Source: a virus. Taken from it: a stretch of DNA of 37,984 bases. A program made the translations under genes and the position numbers. The stretch's first letter is position 1. Each line of letters begins with the position of its first letter. The stretch lies in IMG/VR virus record IMGVR_UViG_3300040960_000278, positions 1 to 37,984 of that record, one strand, 5' to 3'. Positions 4,719 through 37,984 of this stretch are shown here, piece after piece. The notes beneath the pieces were generated by a model, which worked only from the letters and a program-made list of their open reading frames with translations, did no database searches and was not told where the DNA came from.

Positions 4719-4747
4719 ATTATATCATAAGATTTAGTGTGTGTCTA
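4719..4747 (-). promoter_or_regulatory. Sigma70-type promoter PE2 for the secreted protein/SSB segment
   Basis: Read on the minus strand: TAGACA (4747-4742), a 17-bp spacer, TATAAT (4724-4719), and a TGA extended -10 directly before it. The -35 lies in the last codons of the polymerase gene. The expected start site precedes the ribosome site of the exported-protein gene by about 20 bases. Confidence 0.75.
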
Positions 4748-6377
4748 GCCATGTCTTGCCGATCTTTGCCTCAGACTCAGCAGGGATGCGAAAGCCTAAG
4801 ACATTACCTGCCTTGATACTAGCCTTGGTCATGATGTTTGCTACTACGTCACCATAGTGAGCAGGTACTTCCATCTGAATCTCATCATGTACAAAAGCCA
4901 CTTGCTTAACAGGGACATTAGCTCGGCGCAACATACGATGTGCTTCGACACACCATTGCTTTGCGATGATAGCACCGCATGATTGTAGCAAGCTGTTGAG
5001 TGCTGCGTGCTCTGATCGGATGCGTACCTTGCGACCATCCAATGCAGGGACGTAACCCTTCGATGCGATCCTCTGCACCTTTAACAGCAGTTGCTGTAGC
5101 TTGGGTGTGTTACCCATGAACTTATCAATTAACTCTTGTCCTTTCTTTGCGTTACCTCCTGCGATTGCGCCTATCTTTGCAGCACCTGCACCATAGAGCA
5201 GGGCGTAGATAAATGTCTTAGCCTGTGCTCTGGTCTCAAGACCTGCTGCGTGTTGATTAGCAGTATGAATGTCACCATCGAGTAACTCTTTGGTGTAGTT
5301 ATCATCCTGCATATAGTGAGCTAAACAGCGTAGCTCAATACCACTAAGGTCAGTACCTACTAGTACGTTACCTTCGTCTACTGTCCAACAGCTACGGCAC
5401 TCCTTACCGTATGGACTATTAACACTAGGTACTTGACCAAGGTTAGGGTTCTGGTGCGTCATACGTCCTGTCACAGCACCATTACTGATCACCCTACCAT
5501 GTACCCTACCGTCATCATCAGCACGTTCTAGCCATGAATCCACTAGGCCGACACGTTTCTGTAGCATCAGGTATTCGTTGATTAGCTTAGCCTCTGGTAG
5601 ATCAATACCATCAAGTACCTTCTCATTCACGATGATAGATCCTTTCTCAGTACGCTCAGTGAACTTAACACCTAGAGTTTCAAGACGCTTAGCAATCTGT
5701 TGTCGTGATCCTACGTTAAACTCTTCAACGTGATCCTTCAAACGTTTACCTGTCTTCTCACTCCATCGCTCAGTAACGATAGGTGGAAAGGTAACCTGCA
5801 TCTGCATCTCGATATCTACCATGCGGTTGCGTAGCTCAGCGAGTAGCTTACTTGCCTTCGGTACGTCTAGCTTGAAACCAGTACGTTCCTGACGTGCCAT
5901 GTGCATAGCTACCTCATGCTCTAGTGCTAGTGATTGTTGCCAACCTTCACCCATCTCATGCACAAGATGTTTGTGCAAGCGTTCGAGTACCTCAACGTCA
6001 CGTGTACAGTAGTCAAGCATCTCTACTGTTAGGCCGCCATCAAAGTCTTCAACATCAAAGTCCATCTTGTCAAAGCCTAAGCGTTTGCCCCATGCCTTGA
6101 GACTGTGACCACCTTCTACGTTAGGATCGTACAAGCGTGACATGATCAACGTATCGTGTGCGTGTGGTAGTTTGATACCAATACCTAACACTTCACGTAG
6201 TACCTTAGCATCGAAGCCAATCAGGTTATGAGCACAGACTTGTTCGTTCTCAAGGTACTTAGCTAACAGCTTGTACTCTTCAGGCGTAGTCCATGTTTGA
6301 ATAACCTCACCTTTCTTAGTGACGACACACCAGATCTTATCGTGTGCTAGATTAGTTTCAATGTCTAAGTAAATCAT
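4734..6377 (-). CDS. DNA polymerase, family A (T7 gp5-like, no thioredoxin-binding insert)
   Basis: A 547-aa replicative polymerase. The N-terminal 3'-5' exonuclease has D5 and E7 (DIET), D56 (IGFD) and D127 (YCTRDVEV). The polymerase domain has motif A TDLSGIELR (D343), motif B RAQAKTFIYALLYG (R383, K387, Y391) and motif C VHDEIQ (H497-E499). Tyr at 391 equals T7 Y526 / E. coli F762, the state usually seen in virulent phages. T7 gp5 has 704 residues; here the thumb region between TGK (209-211) and SRQQIAKRL (224-232) is very short, so the roughly 75-residue thioredoxin-binding loop of T7 is lost. ATGA junction with the upstream gene. Confidence 0.96.
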   Translation of the reverse strand: MIYLDIETNLAHDKIWCVVTKKGEVIQTWTTPEEYKLLAKYLENEQVCAHNLIGFDAKVLREVLGIGIKLPHAHDTLIMSRLYDPNVEGGHSLKAWGKRLGFDKMDFDVEDFDGGLTVEMLDYCTRDVEVLERLHKHLVHEMGEGWQQSLALEHEVAMHMARQERTGFKLDVPKASKLLAELRNRMVDIEMQMQVTFPPIVTERWSEKTGKRLKDHVEEFNVGSRQQIAKRLETLGVKFTERTEKGSIIVNEKVLDGIDLPEAKLINEYLMLQKRVGLVDSWLERADDDGRVHGRVISNGAVTGRMTHQNPNLGQVPSVNSPYGKECRSCWTVDEGNVLVGTDLSGIELRCLAHYMQDDNYTKELLDGDIHTANQHAAGLETRAQAKTFIYALLYGAGAAKIGAIAGGNAKKGQELIDKFMGNTPKLQQLLLKVQRIASKGYVPALDGRKVRIRSEHAALNSLLQSCGAIIAKQWCVEAHRMLRRANVPVKQVAFVHDEIQMEVPAHYGDVVANIMTKASIKAGNVLGFRIPAESEAKIGKTWLDTH

Positions 6378-6658
6378 ACGTGATTGTCTGTTTGAATAAT
6401 CCTAAAGAATGTATCATGTTCTGGAAATTCTTTCATGAACTTCCTAGCATAGAAAGCTACATGACTATTAGATATCTTGTAGTTATCATCTGATTTAGTT
6501 TCTACCTGACTATACCATCTGATACGTTCAATGATAGCTTGTGCTCCATAACTTTTTACACCTGCCTTAATAGCTTGGAAGGTATAGTCTTTGAACAGAT
6601 CCCAAATATGTGGGTTGTCACTATCAAACTTATCAAACTTTTCTTTTAACTTATTCAT
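6374..6658 (-). CDS. Conserved hypothetical protein, 94 aa
   Basis: Contains KFDSDNPHIWDLF (about 9-21), AIIERIRWYSQVET (about 41-54) and HVAFYARKFMKEFP (about 66-79). I recognise this pattern from a small conserved protein of phages and prophages whose role is not established. It is coupled by ATGA both to the primase-helicase gene and to the polymerase gene, so it is made with the replisome. A replication accessory role is only suggested by position. Confidence 0.75.
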   Translation of the reverse strand: MNKLKEKFDKFDSDNPHIWDLFKDYTFQAIKAGVKSYGAQAIIERIRWYSQVETKSDDNYKISNSHVAFYARKFMKEFPEHDTFFRIIQTDNHV

Positions 6659-8247
6659 AACTCATCCTCATCTCTACGTTCTGTCATTCTACCTGTGTCT
6701 AAGTGATACAGCAATGACGTTGCTTTACCTGTGATACCACAGAATCGATTCTTAAGTACTCGCACGTGTGTGGTGTTACGCTCTAGCGGATCATCGTGTT
6801 GGCCATTTCGTTCGAGACCAATAACCATGTCACTAAGCTGAGCAATACTGCCACTGCCACGTAGCTGAGCCAAAGAAGTTGCAGCTCCTTCTTCATGTCC
6901 TTTACCCTCCGGTCTTTTCAAGTGTGATACTACAGTCAACGATACGCCTGTCTCTTGTACTAGCATACGTAGCTTAGTCATAATCTCATCAAGTGCTTTT
7001 CGCTCATCGCCGGATGCTTGGGCTGACACAACGATGGAGACGTGATCCAAGAATATGTATTGACATCCAAGTCCTTTAGCCATATAGCGTACACGATTGA
7101 TAATGTTGTCAACGCTAGTGCTACCAAAGTGATCAAAGAGATACAAACGTCCAGTACCAAGCGTAGCGTTAAACGCCTCGATCTTTTCTTCATCTGTTGC
7201 CTCACAGTCAGGTAAGTGTAATGGTTTATTAGCGGCCAGTGACATAACACTTAAGCCTGTCTTACGTGTACCTTCCTCAAGGAATAACAAACCAATGTTA
7301 TCTTCTGTCTTATGCAGTACGTGGTACACAATCTCACGTAGGAATTGAGACTTACCTAAACCTGATCCTGCCGTCACTGTCACTAGCTCACCCTTACGTA
7401 TGCCGTAGGTTAGCTTGTTCAATGCAGGGAATGGATAGTCACAGTCACTAGCCTTGATAGGTTTCATCACCTCTTCAAGTAGCGTGTCGCCTGAGATGAT
7501 ACCATCAGGTACGTACTGATCAGCACTCCACCATCGATCATTAAACTCTTTGTTCTCATGGTGTGCTAGGTAATCACACGCATCCTTACGATCGGTAGCG
7601 TGCTTGAATATCTTAGCCTTACTACCGAACAGCTCAGCCAATTGATTAGCTGCACGTTGTCCTACCTCATCACCATCCATACAGATCACGATGTTCTCAA
7701 AGGTAGTCAGCCATTCATACTGTGCCTTTGCATCCTTCAATGCAGACTGAGCACCGTTGCGTACTGATACGACAGGGTACTTAGATCCCATCATCTGGTA
7801 CGCTGCCATCGCATCAAACTCACCTTCGGTTATGGTGACAAACTTACCACCGCCTGAGAATAGATGTTGGCCATACAGTTGTGCATCTTTCCAGTTACCT
7901 TGCGTGCGAAATTGTTTATCTTCGCCGCGTGTCTTAGCTGCAATGATGTTGCCTTTGCTATCAGTGTATCCATAAGCGTAGGTCTCACCATCCTTAATGC
8001 AATTGTATTTCTCGCACGTCTCGCGTGAGATACCACGCTCAAGGATAGTGCGGTGTCCTGTTGTGAAGTCATACGTTAACTTCGATTCTTGTTTAGGTTG
8101 AGGTTGCATATAATTATCTCTTGCGTTATCGCCCTTGGTATGTGTCTGACAAGAGAAACAATACGTACTATTGTCTTCGTTGATTGTCAGTGCATCACTG
8201 CTGCCACAGTCAGGACATGGTTGGTGTGTTTTCTTATAACTCTGCAT
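6655..8247 (-). CDS. Bifunctional DNA primase-helicase (T7 gp4-like)
   Basis: A 530-aa protein with all T7 gp4 modules. The zinc-binding domain has C11, C14, C30 and C33 (CPDCG, CFSC). The TOPRIM primase has ITEGEFDA (E141) and CMDGDEVG (D191, D193). The RecA-like helicase has Walker A AGSGLGKS (293-300), Walker B IFLDH (D401), SHLKRP (H442), the LRGSGSIAQLSD loop (462-473) and the arginine-finger motif LKNRFCG (R501). The acidic C-terminus (RRDEDEL) would contact polymerase. It unwinds DNA and makes RNA primers at the fork. It overlaps the next gene by ATGA and the upstream gene by 14 bp. Confidence 0.96.
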   Translation of the reverse strand: MQSYKKTHQPCPDCGSSDALTINEDNSTYCFSCQTHTKGDNARDNYMQPQPKQESKLTYDFTTGHRTILERGISRETCEKYNCIKDGETYAYGYTDSKGNIIAAKTRGEDKQFRTQGNWKDAQLYGQHLFSGGGKFVTITEGEFDAMAAYQMMGSKYPVVSVRNGAQSALKDAKAQYEWLTTFENIVICMDGDEVGQRAANQLAELFGSKAKIFKHATDRKDACDYLAHHENKEFNDRWWSADQYVPDGIISGDTLLEEVMKPIKASDCDYPFPALNKLTYGIRKGELVTVTAGSGLGKSQFLREIVYHVLHKTEDNIGLLFLEEGTRKTGLSVMSLAANKPLHLPDCEATDEEKIEAFNATLGTGRLYLFDHFGSTSVDNIINRVRYMAKGLGCQYIFLDHVSIVVSAQASGDERKALDEIMTKLRMLVQETGVSLTVVSHLKRPEGKGHEEGAATSLAQLRGSGSIAQLSDMVIGLERNGQHDDPLERNTTHVRVLKNRFCGITGKATSLLYHLDTGRMTERRDEDEL

Positions 8248-11717: not shown

Positions 11718-11903
11718 TTAGTAAATTGTGTCTGAAGTGTAGTATGCCCATTTCTTGTCTGGGTTGTATTTTTCCCAGTCTTCGCGGCGATCTTGCAAAT
11801 AGCTCCATGCTTTTTTCTTGCTGCTGAAATAGTTATTTATTTTAGCTTGCGTGCCGTCTTGATATTCCCAGAAAATAACTACGATATGTACTTTTTTAGC
11901 CAT
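11718..11903 (-). CDS. Hypothetical protein, 61 aa, first gene of the leftward arm
   Basis: Starts MAKKVHIVVIFWEYQDGTQA with GAGGAATTATCATC before the ATG. Basic and aromatic, with SSKKKAWSYLQDRREDW in the middle. As the promoter-proximal leftward gene it would be among the first phage proteins made, a position often held by host-takeover factors. Function unknown. Confidence 0.65.
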   Translation of the reverse strand: MAKKVHIVVIFWEYQDGTQAKINNYFSSKKKAWSYLQDRREDWEKYNPDKKWAYYTSDTIY

Positions 11904-12172: not shown

Positions 12173-12267
12173 CGAGTATTGGCGCGCTCTCAATCGCTTC
12201 TCATGTGGTGTACTTTAGTCGCTTGGTCACCAATGTCTATTAAAAGTTTTTTATAGATACCATAAGA

Positions 12268-12295
12268 ATTATTTATATATACCTATATTAGTCAC
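12268..12295 (-). promoter_or_regulatory. Weak candidate leftward early promoter
   Basis: Minus strand: GTGACT (12295-12290), 16-bp spacer, AATAAT (12273-12268), in a very AT-rich stretch. It lies upstream of the hairpin block and the first leftward gene. Match to consensus is modest (4/6 and 5/6); I list it because some promoter must exist here and I see no better one. Confidence 0.3.
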
Positions 12296-12325
12296 CTCTA
12301 ATGGTTCGGATCCGAGACCTGTAAC

Positions 12326-12346
12326 AGTATATAAGCAAATACTAAT
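12326..12346 (+). repeat. 21-bp dyad repeat, copy 1
   Basis: Matches the consensus core ATATWAGCANNTNCTAAT. It is isolated from the other eight copies and lies to the left of the DnaA boxes, so the two sets flank the candidate origin. Confidence 0.8.
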
Positions 12347-12412
12347 ATACTATGTCTTGTATATAATGAGTACGCGTAGCAATTATCATGCCAACGTGTT
12401 CTGGCCAGCGTT

Positions 12413-12465
12413 TCATCCACAGGTTACTAACAGGGTTATCCACAGAATTGGCATAGTTATCCACA
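12413..12465 (+). promoter_or_regulatory. Three phased DnaA boxes
   Basis: Two perfect boxes TTATCCACA at 12436-12444 and 12457-12465 and one near match TCATCCACA at 12413-12421, all in the same orientation. Start-to-start distances are 23 and 21 bp, close to two helical turns. Host DnaA binding here is the direct reading. Confidence 0.8.
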
Positions 12466-12473
12466 TAGCTAGG

Positions 12474-12564
12474 AGGCTCTGTAAGGCTCTCTAAGGCATT
12501 TTTGGATTTTAGATACCCTGCTATCAAGTACCCCTAAAACGGCATAGAGGCTCTCAGAGGCTCT
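12474..12564 (+). repeat. Helically phased AGGCTCT repeats
   Basis: AGGCTCT occurs at 12474, 12484, 12548 and 12558: two pairs each spaced exactly 10 bp. A shortened AGGC at 12494 continues the first 10-bp series. All lie on one face of the helix next to the DnaA boxes, suggesting a protein-binding array. Confidence 0.7.
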
Positions 12565-12604
12565 CACAGGTATAGAGAACAAATAGAGAACTTAGGCCGA
12601 TTGC

Positions 12605-12633
12605 TTGACATTCTGGCCAGAGTATGCTATGGG
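12605..12633 (+). promoter_or_regulatory. Degenerate copy of the late promoter with a palindrome in its spacer
   Basis: TTGACA (12605-12610), a 17-bp spacer ending AGTATGC exactly as in the three late promoters, then TATGGG where TATAAT is expected. The spacer contains TCTGGCCAGA. Either a dead promoter or one that needs an activator bound to the nearby repeats. Confidence 0.4.
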
Positions 12634-12684
12634 TCATATCAGTATATTAGCAAGTACTAATGTATGGGATTCTGGCCAGAGTAT
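12610..12684 (+). repeat. Repeated TCTGGCCAGA palindrome
   Basis: The 16-bp segment ATTCTGGCCAGAGTAT occurs at 12610 and 12669, and a 9/10 copy of the palindrome at 12400-12408. TCTGGCCAGA is a perfect 10-bp palindrome. Copies alternate with the dyad repeats. Confidence 0.7.
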
Positions 12685-12911
12685 TAGCATATTAGCAAGT
12701 ACTAATGCGACTAGGATATAAGTATATTAGCAAGTACTGATGGAGATCTGTATAAGTATATTAGGATATGCTAAATAGCTACTACACCGACACACACATT
12801 AGTACTTCAGAATATAAGCACATACTAATACAGTACTTTAGAATATAAGCAGATTCTAATGCGCCTCCTCCATTAGCATATTAGCATATAACAATATAAG
12901 CAGATTCTAAT
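12641..12911 (+). repeat. Array of eight 21-bp dyad repeats (iterons/operators)
   Basis: Copies start at 12641, 12686, 12721, 12755, 12809, 12840, 12875 (degenerate) and 12891. Consensus AG then NATATWAGCANNTNCTAAT, built around the dyad TTAG-N6-CTAA. An inverted half copy is at 12796-12810. Spacing is irregular (31-54 bp, two copies overlap), unlike a CRISPR. The half-site CAAGTACTAA recurs inverted as TTAGTACTTG across the -35 of late promoter PL1, so one protein could bind both the array and that promoter. Confidence 0.85.
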
Positions 12912-12924
12912 GCGTTCCTAAGGC

Positions 12925-12959
12925 GGGTTCGCTACAGGGGACGGGGGAGGGGGCGGCGG
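12925..12959 (+). other. G-run cluster with quadruplex potential
   Basis: Runs of 3, 4, 5 and 5 G (12925-12927, 12937-12940, 12943-12947, 12949-12953) followed by GG-C-GG-C-GG type sequence, on the plus strand only. The first loop is 9 bases, the others 2 and 1. It stands out in an otherwise AT-rich region next to the last dyad repeat. Confidence 0.55.
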
Positions 12960-13090
12960 CTAATCAGAATTCTATAGTACCTACCTAGACACAAAAAAGA
13001 GCAAAATAGCAACTAGGTAATAAAAAAGAAACTGTACTGGTAACTATTTGTTTTCTTTATAGAAACTGCGGCGGCTCTGCGGAGTGTCAT

Positions 13091-13154: not shown

Positions 13155-13183
13155 TTGACTTTCTCTAAAAAGTATGCTATAAT
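13155..13183 (+). promoter_or_regulatory. Late promoter PL1
   Basis: TTGACT (13155-13160), 17-bp spacer ending AGTATGC, TATAAT (13178-13183), extended -10 TGC. The sequence AGTAT-GCTATA-ATATACT makes a dyad over the -10. It drives the packaging, lysozyme and portal genes. Shares spacing and 12 or more bases around the -10 with PL2 and PL3. Confidence 0.88.
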
Positions 13184-13276: not shown

Positions 13277-13669
13277 ATGGAAGAGCCTCAGACAACAAAG
13301 AAACGCGGAAGACCTAAGAAGGCTGATGTGTTATCAAAAACAAAAGGTAACAGAGTAGCACGTGGTCGTCCTAAAGGCGATGCAGCCATCATTAACGAAT
13401 ATAAAGCAAGGATGTTAGCATCTCCAAAGAGTGCTAAAGTTCTTGAGAAGATCTTTGATGCAGCGTTAGATGATGAACATAAACACCAAGCTGCTGCATG
13501 GAAAATAATTACTGATCGTGTTATCCCTACAGCAACCTTCGAGAAGGATGTTGTTAAAGGCGCAGGACGTAATGCTATACAGATTAACATCAGTGGCATC
13601 GGCGGTAGTGTGGATGTTTCTCCTACTGATGACGATGATATTATTGAGGCAGAGTACACTGATGAGTGA
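13277..13669 (+). CDS. Putative small terminase subunit with AT-hook-like motifs
   Basis: A 130-aa protein starting MEEPQTTKKRGRPKKADV. Two GRP motifs (RGRPKK at about 10-15 and RGRPKG at about 30-35) resemble AT-hooks that bind the minor groove. The middle is helical (INEYKARMLASPKSAKVLEK, then DEHKHQAAAWKIITDR) and the end is acidic (DDDDIIEAEYTDE). It is the first late gene, two genes before the large terminase, and proteins of this shape are usually annotated as terminase small subunit. The start is uncertain: no good ribosome site precedes the ATG at 13277, and in-frame starts exist at 13226 and 13238. Confidence 0.65.
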   Translation: MEEPQTTKKRGRPKKADVLSKTKGNRVARGRPKGDAAIINEYKARMLASPKSAKVLEKIFDAALDDEHKHQAAAWKIITDRVIPTATFEKDVVKGAGRNAIQINISGIGGSVDVSPTDDDDIIEAEYTDE

Positions 13670-17654: not shown

Positions 17655-17785
17655 TGATTACACGTAAAGAATTAGAGGACGTTCTGACACAAGTAAACAC
17701 AATCCTTGAACGTATGGAACGTAGAATAGAAAAACTAGAAGAGTTGACTAAGAAACCTGTAGGGCGGCCAAAAAAAACCTCTTGA
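17654..17785 (+). CDS. 43-aa coiled-coil microprotein with AT-hook tail
   Basis: Starts MITRKELEDVLTQVNTILER, continues as a heptad-repeat helix (MERRIEKLEELTKK) and ends PVGRPKKTS. The GRPKK motif is AT-hook-like and also occurs in the putative small terminase. It starts at a TAATG overlap with the portal gene and its stop overlaps the PL2 -35 box. Function unknown; a small DNA-binding or packaging accessory is possible. Confidence 0.6.
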   Translation: MITRKELEDVLTQVNTILERMERRIEKLEELTKKPVGRPKKTS

Positions 17786-17810
17786 CTTTTACTAAATAGT
17801 ATGCTATAAT
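17782..17810 (+). promoter_or_regulatory. Late promoter PL2 (scaffold/capsid)
   Basis: TTGACT (17782-17787), 17-bp spacer ending AGTATGC, TATAAT (17805-17810), extended -10 TGC. Nearly identical to PL1 and PL3. Drives two small genes, scaffold and major capsid up to the terminator at 20089. Confidence 0.88.
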
Positions 17811-28231: not shown

Positions 28232-28260
28232 TTGACTTTCTTAAAAAAGTATGCTATAAT
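28232..28260 (+). promoter_or_regulatory. Late promoter PL3 (tail and internal virion genes)
   Basis: TTGACT (28232-28237), 17-bp spacer ending AGTATGC, TATAAT (28255-28260), extended -10 TGC. It is the third copy of the PL1/PL2 sequence, in the 77-bp gap before the tail tube gene. The arms AGTA and TACT flank the -10. Confidence 0.88.
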
Positions 28261-33205: not shown

Positions 33206-36205
33206 ATGGCTACAATTGCACAAGAATTGCAGGACACGCTCACACAGCCTGTAGACATCGCTGTGCCTGAGTCTGAGTCTGCCGCACCTCCTGCACCTGC
33301 AGAGCAAGAACTCACGTTACAGGACATTATAGGGTCTGAGACGCTAATGTCTTTAGGTGCTCAGGCAGGTGACGTAGTACGTGATGGCGAACTCATTCGT
33401 AACTTCTCTAGTCCAGAGGATGCTAAGCCACTCGGCAAGCGCATTACCGCACAAGAATTCCTACTAGATCCTAGCTTACGTCAGCGTGGTGCTGAGGTAG
33501 GTGATCGCATTGCTGAAGACGGTACGATTGAGAAGGCAGGTTACAACAGTGCTATCAATCAATTCCGCTACGGTTGGAATAAAGGTGAAGGCTTAGTTAA
33601 CATGACTTCAGATGTACTAGAAGCGGCTGCGCCTCTAGGTACGTTTGGTCAAACAACAGCAGAGCGTTATGGTGAAGAGTTTGATGCAGCTACATTTAAG
33701 CGCAGACTAGAACTCATCAACCAAGCAGAGCAGCGTGATATTGCTAAGTCAATGGGCTACAACTTTTTGTCTGAAATTAACCGCCGAGGTGGTGGTACAG
33801 CAGCGTCAGTTGTAGGTGAGATTACTGGTGAGCTTGCAGGCGGTGATATCTTGTTACCTGCTACCGTATTATCTAAGGGTGCTAAAGGTTTAGCTGCAGC
33901 AGGTGCTGCGTACGGTGGTACGTACAGTATGGGTAAAGACTTAACAGAAGGTAAGTCTATTGACCTTGAGAAAGCTACAGGCTACGCACTAGGTGGTGCT
34001 GCACTATCACAGTTATTTCCACTAGCAGGTAAAGGCATTAGCGCAGTAGGTAACAAACTTGCTACACGTGGTGCTAAAGCTGAGCTAGATAAGATTCAGA
34101 ATCAGATTAACAAGATGGCAGCAGAGGGTGAACCTACTGAAGCTATCAATACTGAGATTGCACGTCTTGGTAAGCGTATTCAAAATGTAGAGAACATGAC
34201 AGGCGGTAAGATTACTGTACCTGCATCTAAGTCTCAGGCTGAACAGCGCATTGCAGATACTATTGCACATGACAGTACACTAGGCAGACGTATCAGTAAA
34301 GAACTAGACAAGTATCTTGGTACATTATCAACCCGTATTCGTAAGTACTCTGAGCCTATCTTCGGACGATTGCGTAAGTTTGAAGCAGATAGTCACATTG
34401 CTACTCACAAGAATCTTAAAGAAGTAGATGGTTGGTCAGAAGGTATACTACGTTTACCTAAAGCAACACAACGTGCTATCGGTTTTCATTTATCTTCTGA
34501 GAACTTTAAAGCAGCTAAGGCATTGATGCCTGATGAGCTTGCTTCTATGTTTGATAACGCTGTAGTACCTACACTCAAGCGTCTTAAGGATCAGCTTAAA
34601 GCACAAGGCGATGAGTTTGTAGAGATTCAGAACTACTTCCCACGAATGGTTAAGGACATCAAAGGTCTTAAGCAAGCGATGGGTCAGTCAATGCGCTCTG
34701 AGCTAGAGGATGTGCTAGAAAAAATAGCTAAGTCACGTGGTATGAGCCGTGCTGATTTATCAGAGACTGAGGTAACACGTATCATGGAGCGTATGCTTCG
34801 TGGTTATAAACCTGTTATGAAGGGTAAGAAGCTACAGTATGAGAAGGCACGTACTGTATCACTAGACGATAACCTATATCGCTTCTACGAAGATCCTACT
34901 ACTGCGCTCAGCGATTACATTCGTAAGTCAGTACACGATATGGAGTCACGTAAATTCTTTGGTACTTCAAAGATTGTAGATGAGCAGGGTTTAAATCCTA
35001 ATGCTTCAATTGCTCAGCTTGCTAAAGATGAGATGAAAGATCTTACCTTGGATGAGCAAGATGAACTTATGGGTTTGTTAACAGCACGCTTTACAGGTGG
35101 TGAGCAAACTCCTAATCAGGTACTACGTTTCATTCGTAATACTGGCTACATGGGTACAATAGCTAATCCACTATCAGCAATGATTCAGCTTGGTGACCTT
35201 GCTGCGTCAGGTGCGTTGCATGGTTTAGTTAATACCATGAAGTCTATGTTTGGCCGTAACAATCCTTTGTTTGTTAAGCTAGATGACATTGGTATTGGTA
35301 ACATGATATCTGAAGAGTTATCTGATCCAATGAAATCATCACGTCTGCTACGTACATTGTTCAGACGTTCAGGCTTTACAATGGTGGATCGCTTCGCTAA
35401 AGAAACATCCATGAATGCTGCGCTTGCTAAGAACTATAAGTTAGCTAAGAGTGCAGGCGGTGAAGCAGCAATACGTAAGAAATGGCAGGGTACGTTTGGT
35501 AAAGAAACCGATGCATTGATTGCAGATCTTAAAGCAGATCGTATGTCTGATAACGTAAAGCTATTAGCATTCAACGAACTATCTGACTTGCAGCCTATCA
35601 CATTAATGGAGATGCCAGAGAAATATCTAACATCACCTAACGGCCGTATCTTTTATATGCTTAAGTCATTCATGCTCAAGCAGCTAGACGTAGCACGCCG
35701 TAATGTATTCCAAGAGTTTAAGACTAACCCTAAGAATGCAGTGAAGACTGCGGCAGCGTTGTGGGGATACTTAGCGATTGCTAACGGTAGTACTAGCATT
35801 GCACGTGACGTACTACTCAAGCGTGATATCAGTAATGAAGACTTTCCTGATCGTGCGATGTGGGCATTGCTAGGTGTATATGGTATTGATAAGTATACAG
35901 GCGAGCGTTACTTAGCTAATGGCCAAGTAAAGGATGCAGCAATTAATATGATCATGCCCGCTACGCCTATCTTCGATGCTATGTTTGGTGCTCTTGATAA
36001 GGGTATTGACATTGCAGCAGGGCGTAAAGATCTTGAGGATGTCAACCTTGGTAAGTTTGTGAAGCCAGTACCTATCGTAGGTAACATCTTCTATAACTGG
36101 TTCTTAGGTGGTGCTGAGCTTTGGAATGAAGATCGTATAAGTAAGACTAAGGATACAACTACTAAGGATATACTTAAGTCTGAATGGGACATCAAGACTA
36201 AATAA
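33206..36205 (+). CDS. Large internal virion / ejection protein (T7 gp16-like position)
   Basis: A 999-aa protein, the last late gene. N-terminal part Pro/Ala/Glu-rich (PESESAAPPAPAEQEL), then VGEITGELAGGDILLPATVL and several Gly/Ala hydrophobic stretches (GLAAAGAAYGGTYSMG; GTIANPLSAMIQLGDLAASG) that may cross membranes. Long charged helices follow, and GRIFYMLKSFMLKQLDVAR and IVGNIFYNWFLGGAEL lie near the end. It has no lytic transglycosylase motif of the gp16 N-terminus. The cell-wall enzyme of this phage is instead encoded at 13662-14501. Role: DNA ejection channel across the inner membrane, by position and size. Confidence 0.78.
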   Translation: MATIAQELQDTLTQPVDIAVPESESAAPPAPAEQELTLQDIIGSETLMSLGAQAGDVVRDGELIRNFSSPEDAKPLGKRITAQEFLLDPSLRQRGAEVGDRIAEDGTIEKAGYNSAINQFRYGWNKGEGLVNMTSDVLEAAAPLGTFGQTTAERYGEEFDAATFKRRLELINQAEQRDIAKSMGYNFLSEINRRGGGTAASVVGEITGELAGGDILLPATVLSKGAKGLAAAGAAYGGTYSMGKDLTEGKSIDLEKATGYALGGAALSQLFPLAGKGISAVGNKLATRGAKAELDKIQNQINKMAAEGEPTEAINTEIARLGKRIQNVENMTGGKITVPASKSQAEQRIADTIAHDSTLGRRISKELDKYLGTLSTRIRKYSEPIFGRLRKFEADSHIATHKNLKEVDGWSEGILRLPKATQRAIGFHLSSENFKAAKALMPDELASMFDNAVVPTLKRLKDQLKAQGDEFVEIQNYFPRMVKDIKGLKQAMGQSMRSELEDVLEKIAKSRGMSRADLSETEVTRIMERMLRGYKPVMKGKKLQYEKARTVSLDDNLYRFYEDPTTALSDYIRKSVHDMESRKFFGTSKIVDEQGLNPNASIAQLAKDEMKDLTLDEQDELMGLLTARFTGGEQTPNQVLRFIRNTGYMGTIANPLSAMIQLGDLAASGALHGLVNTMKSMFGRNNPLFVKLDDIGIGNMISEELSDPMKSSRLLRTLFRRSGFTMVDRFAKETSMNAALAKNYKLAKSAGGEAAIRKKWQGTFGKETDALIADLKADRMSDNVKLLAFNELSDLQPITLMEMPEKYLTSPNGRIFYMLKSFMLKQLDVARRNVFQEFKTNPKNAVKTAAALWGYLAIANGSTSIARDVLLKRDISNEDFPDRAMWALLGVYGIDKYTGERYLANGQVKDAAINMIMPATPIFDAMFGALDKGIDIAAGRKDLEDVNLGKFVKPVPIVGNIFYNWFLGGAELWNEDRISKTKDTTTKDILKSEWDIKTK

Positions 36206-36228
36206 AAAACGGGGGCGCAATGCCCCCG
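36204..36228 (-). terminator. Strong intrinsic terminator for leftward transcripts
   Basis: Stem CGGGGGC/GCCCCCG (7 bp plus a G-U) with a 3-5 base loop, followed on the minus strand by TTTTTT. It ends the nrd transcript and stops it from running antisense into the late genes. On the plus strand the stem has an A-run before it but no U-run after it, so late transcripts are less well stopped. Confidence 0.88.
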
Positions 36229-36247
36229 AATACTACCTCCACAGTAG

Positions 36248-36364
36248 TCAATCCTTATTACGATAGCATCGGTTGCTAGAGCAATCGTTCTTACCGCACC
36301 AGTACGCAAACAGTACACAACCTGCTGCGACAATAGCTACGAATAAATCACCTATCAATTCCAT
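36248..36364 (-). CDS. 38-aa membrane microprotein with Cys-rich tail
   Basis: Starts MELIGDLFVAIVAAGCVLFA (one span, about 4-22) followed by a polar tail with cysteines (CGKNDCSSNRCYRNKD). The start overlaps the nrdB 3' end, with GGAG at 7-base spacing, and it lies just before the terminator, so it is the last gene of the early arm. Unknown function. Confidence 0.6.
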   Translation of the reverse strand: MELIGDLFVAIVAAGCVLFAYWCGKNDCSSNRCYRNKD

Positions 36365-37453: not shown

Positions 37454-37984
37454 GACACGCTAAGCATTCGTCAGCATCCTTCAATGCTACACGTGCTACC
37501 TTATCACCGACTTGATCGGCTGTGATACCTGCGTTAGTACGTAGATAATACAATCCTTTCAGTCCACCTTTGAAAGCGCGTAAGTGTACAGCATTGACGT
37601 ATGACTTGTCACTACCTGAAGGGAAGAACAAGTTAACACTCTGCCCTTGGCATACATACGGTTGACGATCTGCTGCGTGGTCTACTACCCAACGCTGATC
37701 AATCTCAAACGCTGTCTTGAATACATCCTTCTCCCACTCATCTAAGAATTCAAGGTGCTGTACGCTACCCTGATTAGCGATAATTGTTTTCCACACTGCA
37801 TCGTTGTTACGTCCCTTCTCTTCTAACACTTTCTCAAGGTATTTATTCTTGATGAGATGCGCTCCTGCACGTGTACGATGGGTAAAAGCATTAGACTTAA
37901 CAGGCTCAATGGAAGCAGTACAGCCACAAATAATACTGCTATTGGCATTTGGAGCAATGGCAATGAGATGAGCGTTACGCATTC
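37446..37984 (-). CDS. nrdA: Ribonucleotide reductase class I, large subunit, C-terminal part (continues from 1-1337)
   Basis: Continues the nrdA frame across the seam; the last 127 bases repeat the window start. Visible are APNANSSIICGC (about 414-425), the CQGQSVNLFF segment, the radical-transfer tyrosine pair in GLYYLRTN (Y549, Y550; E. coli Y730/Y731) and the C-terminal redox pair ECLACHG (C577, C580), which takes electrons from thioredoxin or glutaredoxin. The pair is CxxC, shorter than the CxxxxC of E. coli. With the N-terminal part the protein is 582 aa. Confidence 0.96.
   Translation of the reverse strand, partial: MRNAHLIAIAPNANSSIICGCTASIEPVKSNAFTHRTRAGAHLIKNKYLEKVLEEKGRNNDAVWKTIIANQGSVQHLEFLDEWEKDVFKTAFEIDQRWVVDHAADRQPYVCQGQSVNLFFPSGSDKSYVNAVHLRAFKGGLKGLYYLRTNAGITADQVGDKVARVALKDADECLACHG
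37858..37984. repeat. Right copy of the 127-bp end overlap
   Basis: Identical to 1-127. Removing one copy closes a 37,857-bp circle and restores nrdA. Confidence 0.95.

Follow-up and report, generated by a model that had tools for sequence, protein, structure and literature searches.

Phage and plasmid origins that use host DnaA are known in kind, and the way in which replication starts in T7-like phages without an RNA polymerase of their own is, to our knowledge, unsettled. In bacterial oriC-type origins, consensus DnaA boxes cluster on the same helical face beside AT-rich DNA, where the gene arms diverge, and the P1 oriR, pSC101 and F origins combine, within a single intergenic region, DnaA boxes, iterons, and GC-rich and AT-rich blocks. 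Both sets of features recur in the phage DNA described here (the window, that is, the whole stretch of 37,984 nucleotides that was analysed). The window differs from a bacterial origin in its few boxes, in that no DnaA-trio was found and in being a phage whose boxes lie near a predicted terminal repeat, and from the plasmid origins in that no Rep initiator was recognised and that it is a phage with a T7-like replication module.

Among phages, the cobaviruses/Zobellviridae (ICBM1, SIO1 and P12053L) resemble the window in their replication arm, with 46% identity in the primase/helicase, and in having no RNA polymerase. The cobavirus terminal repeat sits in a gene-free region between the arms together with a GC-rich block, and was mapped in ICBM1 as a repeat of 172 bp (PMC6775973); in the window, such a repeat is predicted. 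Unlike the window, P12053L contains no perfect DnaA box, and the cobavirus TerL is distantly similar and the orientation of the records is different. DnaA boxes have also been listed, with other repeats, among the features of the injection stop signal in the terminal-repeat region of phage T5 (PMC13250531). DnaA boxes near a terminal repeat are all that T5 and the window have in common: T5 enters in two steps via a long terminal repeat, whereas nothing in the window shows staged entry.

The DnaA-box cluster and its surroundings

The ends of the record overlap by 127 bp (1-127 = 37858-37984), which makes the window a closed phage assembly of 37,857 bp. Its leftward replication arm encodes a T7-like primase/helicase (6655-8247, - strand; the first large gene of this arm), a PolA-type DNA polymerase (4734-6377, - strand), an exonuclease, an endonuclease, SSB and ribonucleotide reductase, and its rightward structural arm encodes TerL, portal and capsid. 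No T7-type RNA polymerase was found in the window, or in P12053L, by a search in which CRP-125 served as the positive control, in agreement with the earlier note, which had stated that this genome has no such polymerase. Together with the T7-like primase/helicase, PolA, exonuclease, endonuclease and SSB, this gives the window the make-up of an RNA-polymerase-less, cobavirus-like phage of the T7 supergroup. The window has just one large divergent intergenic region, non-coding from 11904 to ~13276, between a leftward gene that starts at 11903 and a putative small terminase (TerS-like) gene with an AT-hook motif (13277-13669, + strand; AT_hook match), whose TerS role is suggested by its position before TerL. 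The DnaA boxes lie inside this region. The sole ORF of at least 60 aa across them (12342-12527, TTG start) is not credible, and a coding reading was rejected; no RNA families or tRNAs were found. An assignment of the host from GTDB genomes was likewise rejected, because the matches were MAG contigs only, with unclear binning.

The cluster consists of three DnaA boxes on the + strand, namely a box with one mismatch (TCATCCACA, 12413-12421) and two perfect copies of TTATCCACA (12436-12444 and 12457-12465), with start-to-start spacings of 23 and 21 bp. The earlier note had described two perfect boxes and one near match on the same strand, 21-23 bp apart and in phase, and this description holds: the spacing is helical, and when the whole genome was shuffled 400 times with dinucleotides preserved, no shuffle gave a same-strand perfect pair within 30 bp. 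One further perfect box is present in the genome (18270), and sites with at most one mismatch number nine, against 10.3 expected, that is, without enrichment, so that the signal is the cluster and not the total. No DnaA-trio was seen by eye beside the boxes. By their sequence and spacing, the three boxes represent a predicted binding site for host DnaA near the terminus of the phage genome.

Directly left of the boxes, 12322-12372 ranks third among the least stable 50-bp stretches of the genome, and the least stable one (12238-12288), which contains two AT-rich 14-mers 22 bp apart (12247-12260 and 12269-12282), is a candidate DNA-unwinding element that would be expected to melt. Low duplex stability next to DnaA boxes is a property of DnaA-dependent origins. 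About 10 degenerate iterons with the consensus GTATATTAGCAAGTACTAATG surround the boxes and extend to their right (12277-12912, + strand), and a direct-repeat array beside DnaA boxes is found in iteron-type origins such as P1 oriR and pSC101. A strand-skew plot, which the earlier note had proposed as a check, placed the minimum of the cumulative GC skew at 12540 and the maximum at 36215, which fits an origin here. The skew is inseparable from transcription, since the genes on either side of the site point away from it; GC skew was therefore rejected as independent proof, being confounded by gene strand and, in relatives, also by the G tract.

Other elements share the region. A G-rich tract, whose position is conserved in most relatives, occupies 12937-12960 (+ strand), and the rightward arm has a strong sigma-70-type promoter at 13155-13183 (+ strand). 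This promoter is one of three near-identical copies (TTGACT...TATGCTATAAT) in the structural arm (13155-13183, 17782-17810 and 28232-28260), a repetition that is consistent with use of the host RNA polymerase. The element GCAA-N6-TGCCAA (12379-12394, + strand) forms arrays in relatives, being repeated in L117, L142, L149, L005 and L010, and its reverse complement resembles a sigma-54 -24/-12 promoter; read in reverse, 12379-12394 is a leftward sigma-54-like TTGGCAT-N5-TTGC, 18 bp from the first box. The nine copies in L117 form an iteron-like array in both orientations, so that this element, in general, is unlikely to be a sigma-54 promoter.

Predicted terminal repeats and DnaA-box arrays in relatives

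Upstream of the TerS-like gene, the repeat array and the G-rich tract are flanked by two related motifs, M1 (GGTAcCCaCAcggACACTCACACTT) and M2 (GTACCCaCtcAGATACAAAAAAGG...). In the window, M1 (12777-12801, + strand; unique in the genome) is the predicted left edge of a direct terminal repeat, and M2 (12977-13012, + strand), followed by AT-rich DNA, is the predicted right edge, so that the virion DNA would carry a direct terminal repeat at 12780-12980, with approximate edges. M1 was present in 112 of the 113 loci counted, at a median of 179 bp left of M2. The prediction is modelled on G003 and ICBM1. G003, a 36.3-kb contig of L166 that is apparently a complete linear genome with its terminal repeats, has a 221-bp direct end repeat (1-221 and 36118-36338), which holds seven DnaA boxes and whose edges fall in M1 (weak match) and M2 (strong match). 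In ICBM1, the order of repeats, G-rich tract, cut and ACACAAAAA matches in this orientation; the M1/M2 motif models gave no score at the ICBM1 terminal repeat. Several contigs start at M1 or M2, in modest excess. On the basis of the direct repeat of G003 and the mapped ends of ICBM1, we suggest that M1 and M2 bound a direct terminal repeat and are probably a pair of terminase cut sites. An interpretation of the G-rich tract as a cos site was dropped in favor of this reading, because contig ends do not accumulate at a single base and G003 and ICBM1 have direct repeats.

Scans with TerL and TerS-like proteins yielded about 150 loci from uncultivated viruses. For the enrichment analysis, 93 non-redundant loci were gathered regardless of DnaA boxes, and the 1 kb upstream of the TerS-like gene contained 128 perfect copies of TTATCCACA, compared with 1.1 expected and with at most 5 for permuted 9-mers in the same test. 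At least two perfect boxes were found in 34 of the 93 loci and at least three in 24, and in none of the shuffles. The same-strand spacing of boxes in these loci peaked at 11-12, 19-23 and 30-34 bp, and in 17 of 33 loci no more than 6 bp lay between the end of the last box and the G-rich tract. Box density was 9.2 per kb within M1-M2, 0.3 per kb in the 600 bp to the left and 0.02 per kb elsewhere, in a set that includes some loci found via DnaA boxes. An independent scan of a viral collection for two boxes 11 bp apart returned at least about 118 loci, and roughly one-fifth of the ~118 matches listed encode relatives of the window's TerS or TerL. No similarity to the window's TerS, TerL, portal, capsid, primase or polymerase was detected in further viral contigs that carry DnaA-box arrays (L230 5497-5602, L245 8967-9156 and L177 104-359).

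The window is atypical among these phages, in that its predicted repeat holds other iterons and its boxes lie ~310 bp outside, a minority arrangement shared with L091, L129 and, in part, L200; array-bearing relatives have 3-10 perfect boxes, whereas the window has two. No perfect box was found at this place in the nearest relatives, L082 and L042, which have only the CTAATG iterons that they share with the window, and the box segment of the window does not align with L082. In many relatives without DnaA boxes the same slot holds other repeats, such as GCAA-N6-TGCCAA arrays in L117 and L142. L145 has 11-bp tandem units (TGCGTGTGGTG, with the CCCAATGGTG type nearby) 165-200 bp left of the G-rich tract, and these occupy the slot where other relatives have boxes at 11-bp steps. 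Among 19 genomes, no gene convincingly tracked DnaA-type as opposed to iteron-type repeats, and no Rep initiator gene was recognised among the proteins searched, besides which there are small uncharacterised ORFs. L020 (4446-4532), L022 (150-254) and G003 (34103-34207) have a second DnaA-box cluster, which lies ~2-2.7 kb further left, where the replication arm begins; in L020 and L022 it ends with a box that is followed by AT-rich DNA. DnaA-trio repeats near a box are the mark of the BUS (PMC8287927), and a recognisable BUS is also missing from about 15% of bacterial origins. At 192 boxes of the relatives, BUS-like flanks (a DnaA-trio within 16 bp of a box) numbered 0, versus 1.9 in shuffles.

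When the DnaA array of one relative was used as a query, matches were found in T7-like isolates. The end repeat of phiEap-1 (NC_028772) is 195 bp long with five perfect boxes, the array lying at 71-174 and again at the right end; Shigella phage A7 (NC_048180) has a 177-bp repeat with four perfect boxes (22-135) and zero elsewhere in the genome; and Kp7 (ON148527) has a 238-bp repeat with five perfect boxes (63-222). In these Autographiviridae repeats of 177-238 bp, perfect boxes are ~21-22 bp apart and wider. All three phages encode an RNA polymerase, unlike the window, and differ from it in that its boxes are outside the predicted repeat. A perfect-box array was also observed at the record end (47146-47186) of Vibrio phage BD1 (L427), a T7-like isolate with its own RNA polymerase. 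Since arrays occur in isolates that encode the polymerase, genome-end arrays are not simply a substitute forced by its loss, and they need not be the primary origin. The earlier note had argued from the missing polymerase to the use of DnaA; as a general rule, this argument fails, because RNA-polymerase-encoding T7-like phages carry terminal-repeat arrays and the RNA-polymerase-less cobavirus P12053L is without any perfect box. The DnaA-dependent origin that the note had proposed thus loses this argument, and retains the non-random boxes, their helical spacing, an unwinding candidate and the enriched arrays in relatives.

Possible roles of DnaA near the genome terminus

We favor the explanation that the cluster is a landing site for DnaA near the genome terminus, most likely for the initiation of replication, with a probability that we put at slightly under one-half. 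Host DnaA would bind the three boxes in helical phase and most likely help to open the AT-rich DNA to the left (12238-12372); the opened DNA would then be the entry point for the phage primase/helicase and polymerase, with forks then travelling left across the replication arm and right across the structural arm. This explanation is favored by the 0/400 shuffles, by the placement of two of the three least stable stretches just left of the boxes, by the position of the cluster at the junction of the arms and the skew minimum, by the enrichment in relatives, by the clusters outside the repeat in L091, L129 and L200 and the second clusters in L020, L022 and G003, and by the lack of a T7-type RNA polymerase that could prime replication. 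Against it stand the absence of perfect boxes from L082 and L042, the presence of only two perfect boxes in the window, the lack of a DnaA-trio in relatives, the arrays in RNA-polymerase-bearing phages and the confounding of skew by gene direction. Because the predicted terminal repeat of the window holds unrelated iterons, its boxes may be an auxiliary element of an origin of mixed type.

The relatives' arrays lie within the stretch that forms the terminal repeat of G003, beside the G-rich tract and M2, and RNA-polymerase-bearing T7-like phages have arrays in their terminal repeats. These observations speak for a different action of DnaA near the terminus, namely when the terminal repeat is duplicated or cut in the course of packaging, in end protection or in a pause of DNA entry like that at the T5 injection stop signal, which is a precedent for DnaA boxes at such a site (PMC13250531). 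We regard such an action as rather unlikely in the window, where the boxes are ~310 bp outside the predicted repeat, and the latter, at ~200 bp, is too short for staged gene entry, unlike that of T5. Moreover, we know of no role of DnaA in packaging. DnaA is also a known bacterial transcription factor, and the boxes are upstream of the leftward arm, with the leftward sigma-54-like sequence 18 bp from the first of them; that DnaA controls transcription from the divergent region, particularly of the replication arm, is nevertheless improbable, as the nearest leftward promoter-like sites (12295-12268 and 12239-12212) are >100 bp from the boxes, the arrays of relatives are tied to the G-rich tract and not to a promoter, and a sequence that occurs nine times in both orientations, as in L117, is unlike a promoter.

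The cluster might instead be a non-functional remnant, if the lineage had gone over to CTAATG iterons and retained a portion of a DnaA array that was older or had recombined. Iterons do fill the usual slot in the window and are the only repeats of its closest relatives, and the box segment cannot be aligned with L082; however, the genome's least stable DNA lies beside two boxes that are perfect and in helical phase, and similar clusters outside the repeat are found in L091, L129 and L200, which leaves a remnant quite improbable. Titration of DnaA by the boxes, blocking the host's own replication start, would suit relatives with many boxes per genome, such as L200 with 11, but for three boxes it is very improbable, and it would not need a position at the arm junction and beside the terminus.

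Initiation at a DnaA landing site, which remains our preferred reading, would give RNA-polymerase-less T7-like phages a testable candidate for a replication start, in the form of a DnaA site with an easily melted region nearby. As judged from their sequences, related marine phages and some T7-like phages probably recruit DnaA at their genome ends. We propose more tentatively, as a possible but doubtful generalization, that genome-end DnaA-box arrays are a recurrent device of the T7 supergroup for bringing the host initiator to the terminus, where it would start or complete replication. Terminal repeats would then carry fast-changing arrays of short phased repeats, with the DnaA box as the repeat unit in several separate lineages, some of which have a phage RNA polymerase and some of which do not. 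The T5 case aside, we found no report in the open-licence literature of DnaA arrays at the genome ends of lytic phages of the T7 supergroup. Arrays in the terminal repeats of T7-like phages, both marine and enterobacterial, would link the host initiator with the ends of phage genomes, and cultivated phages such as phiEap-1 allow the pattern to be tested.

As a separate observation, the DnaA-array query also matched Lactococcus phages, Arthrobacter phages and some Microviridae.
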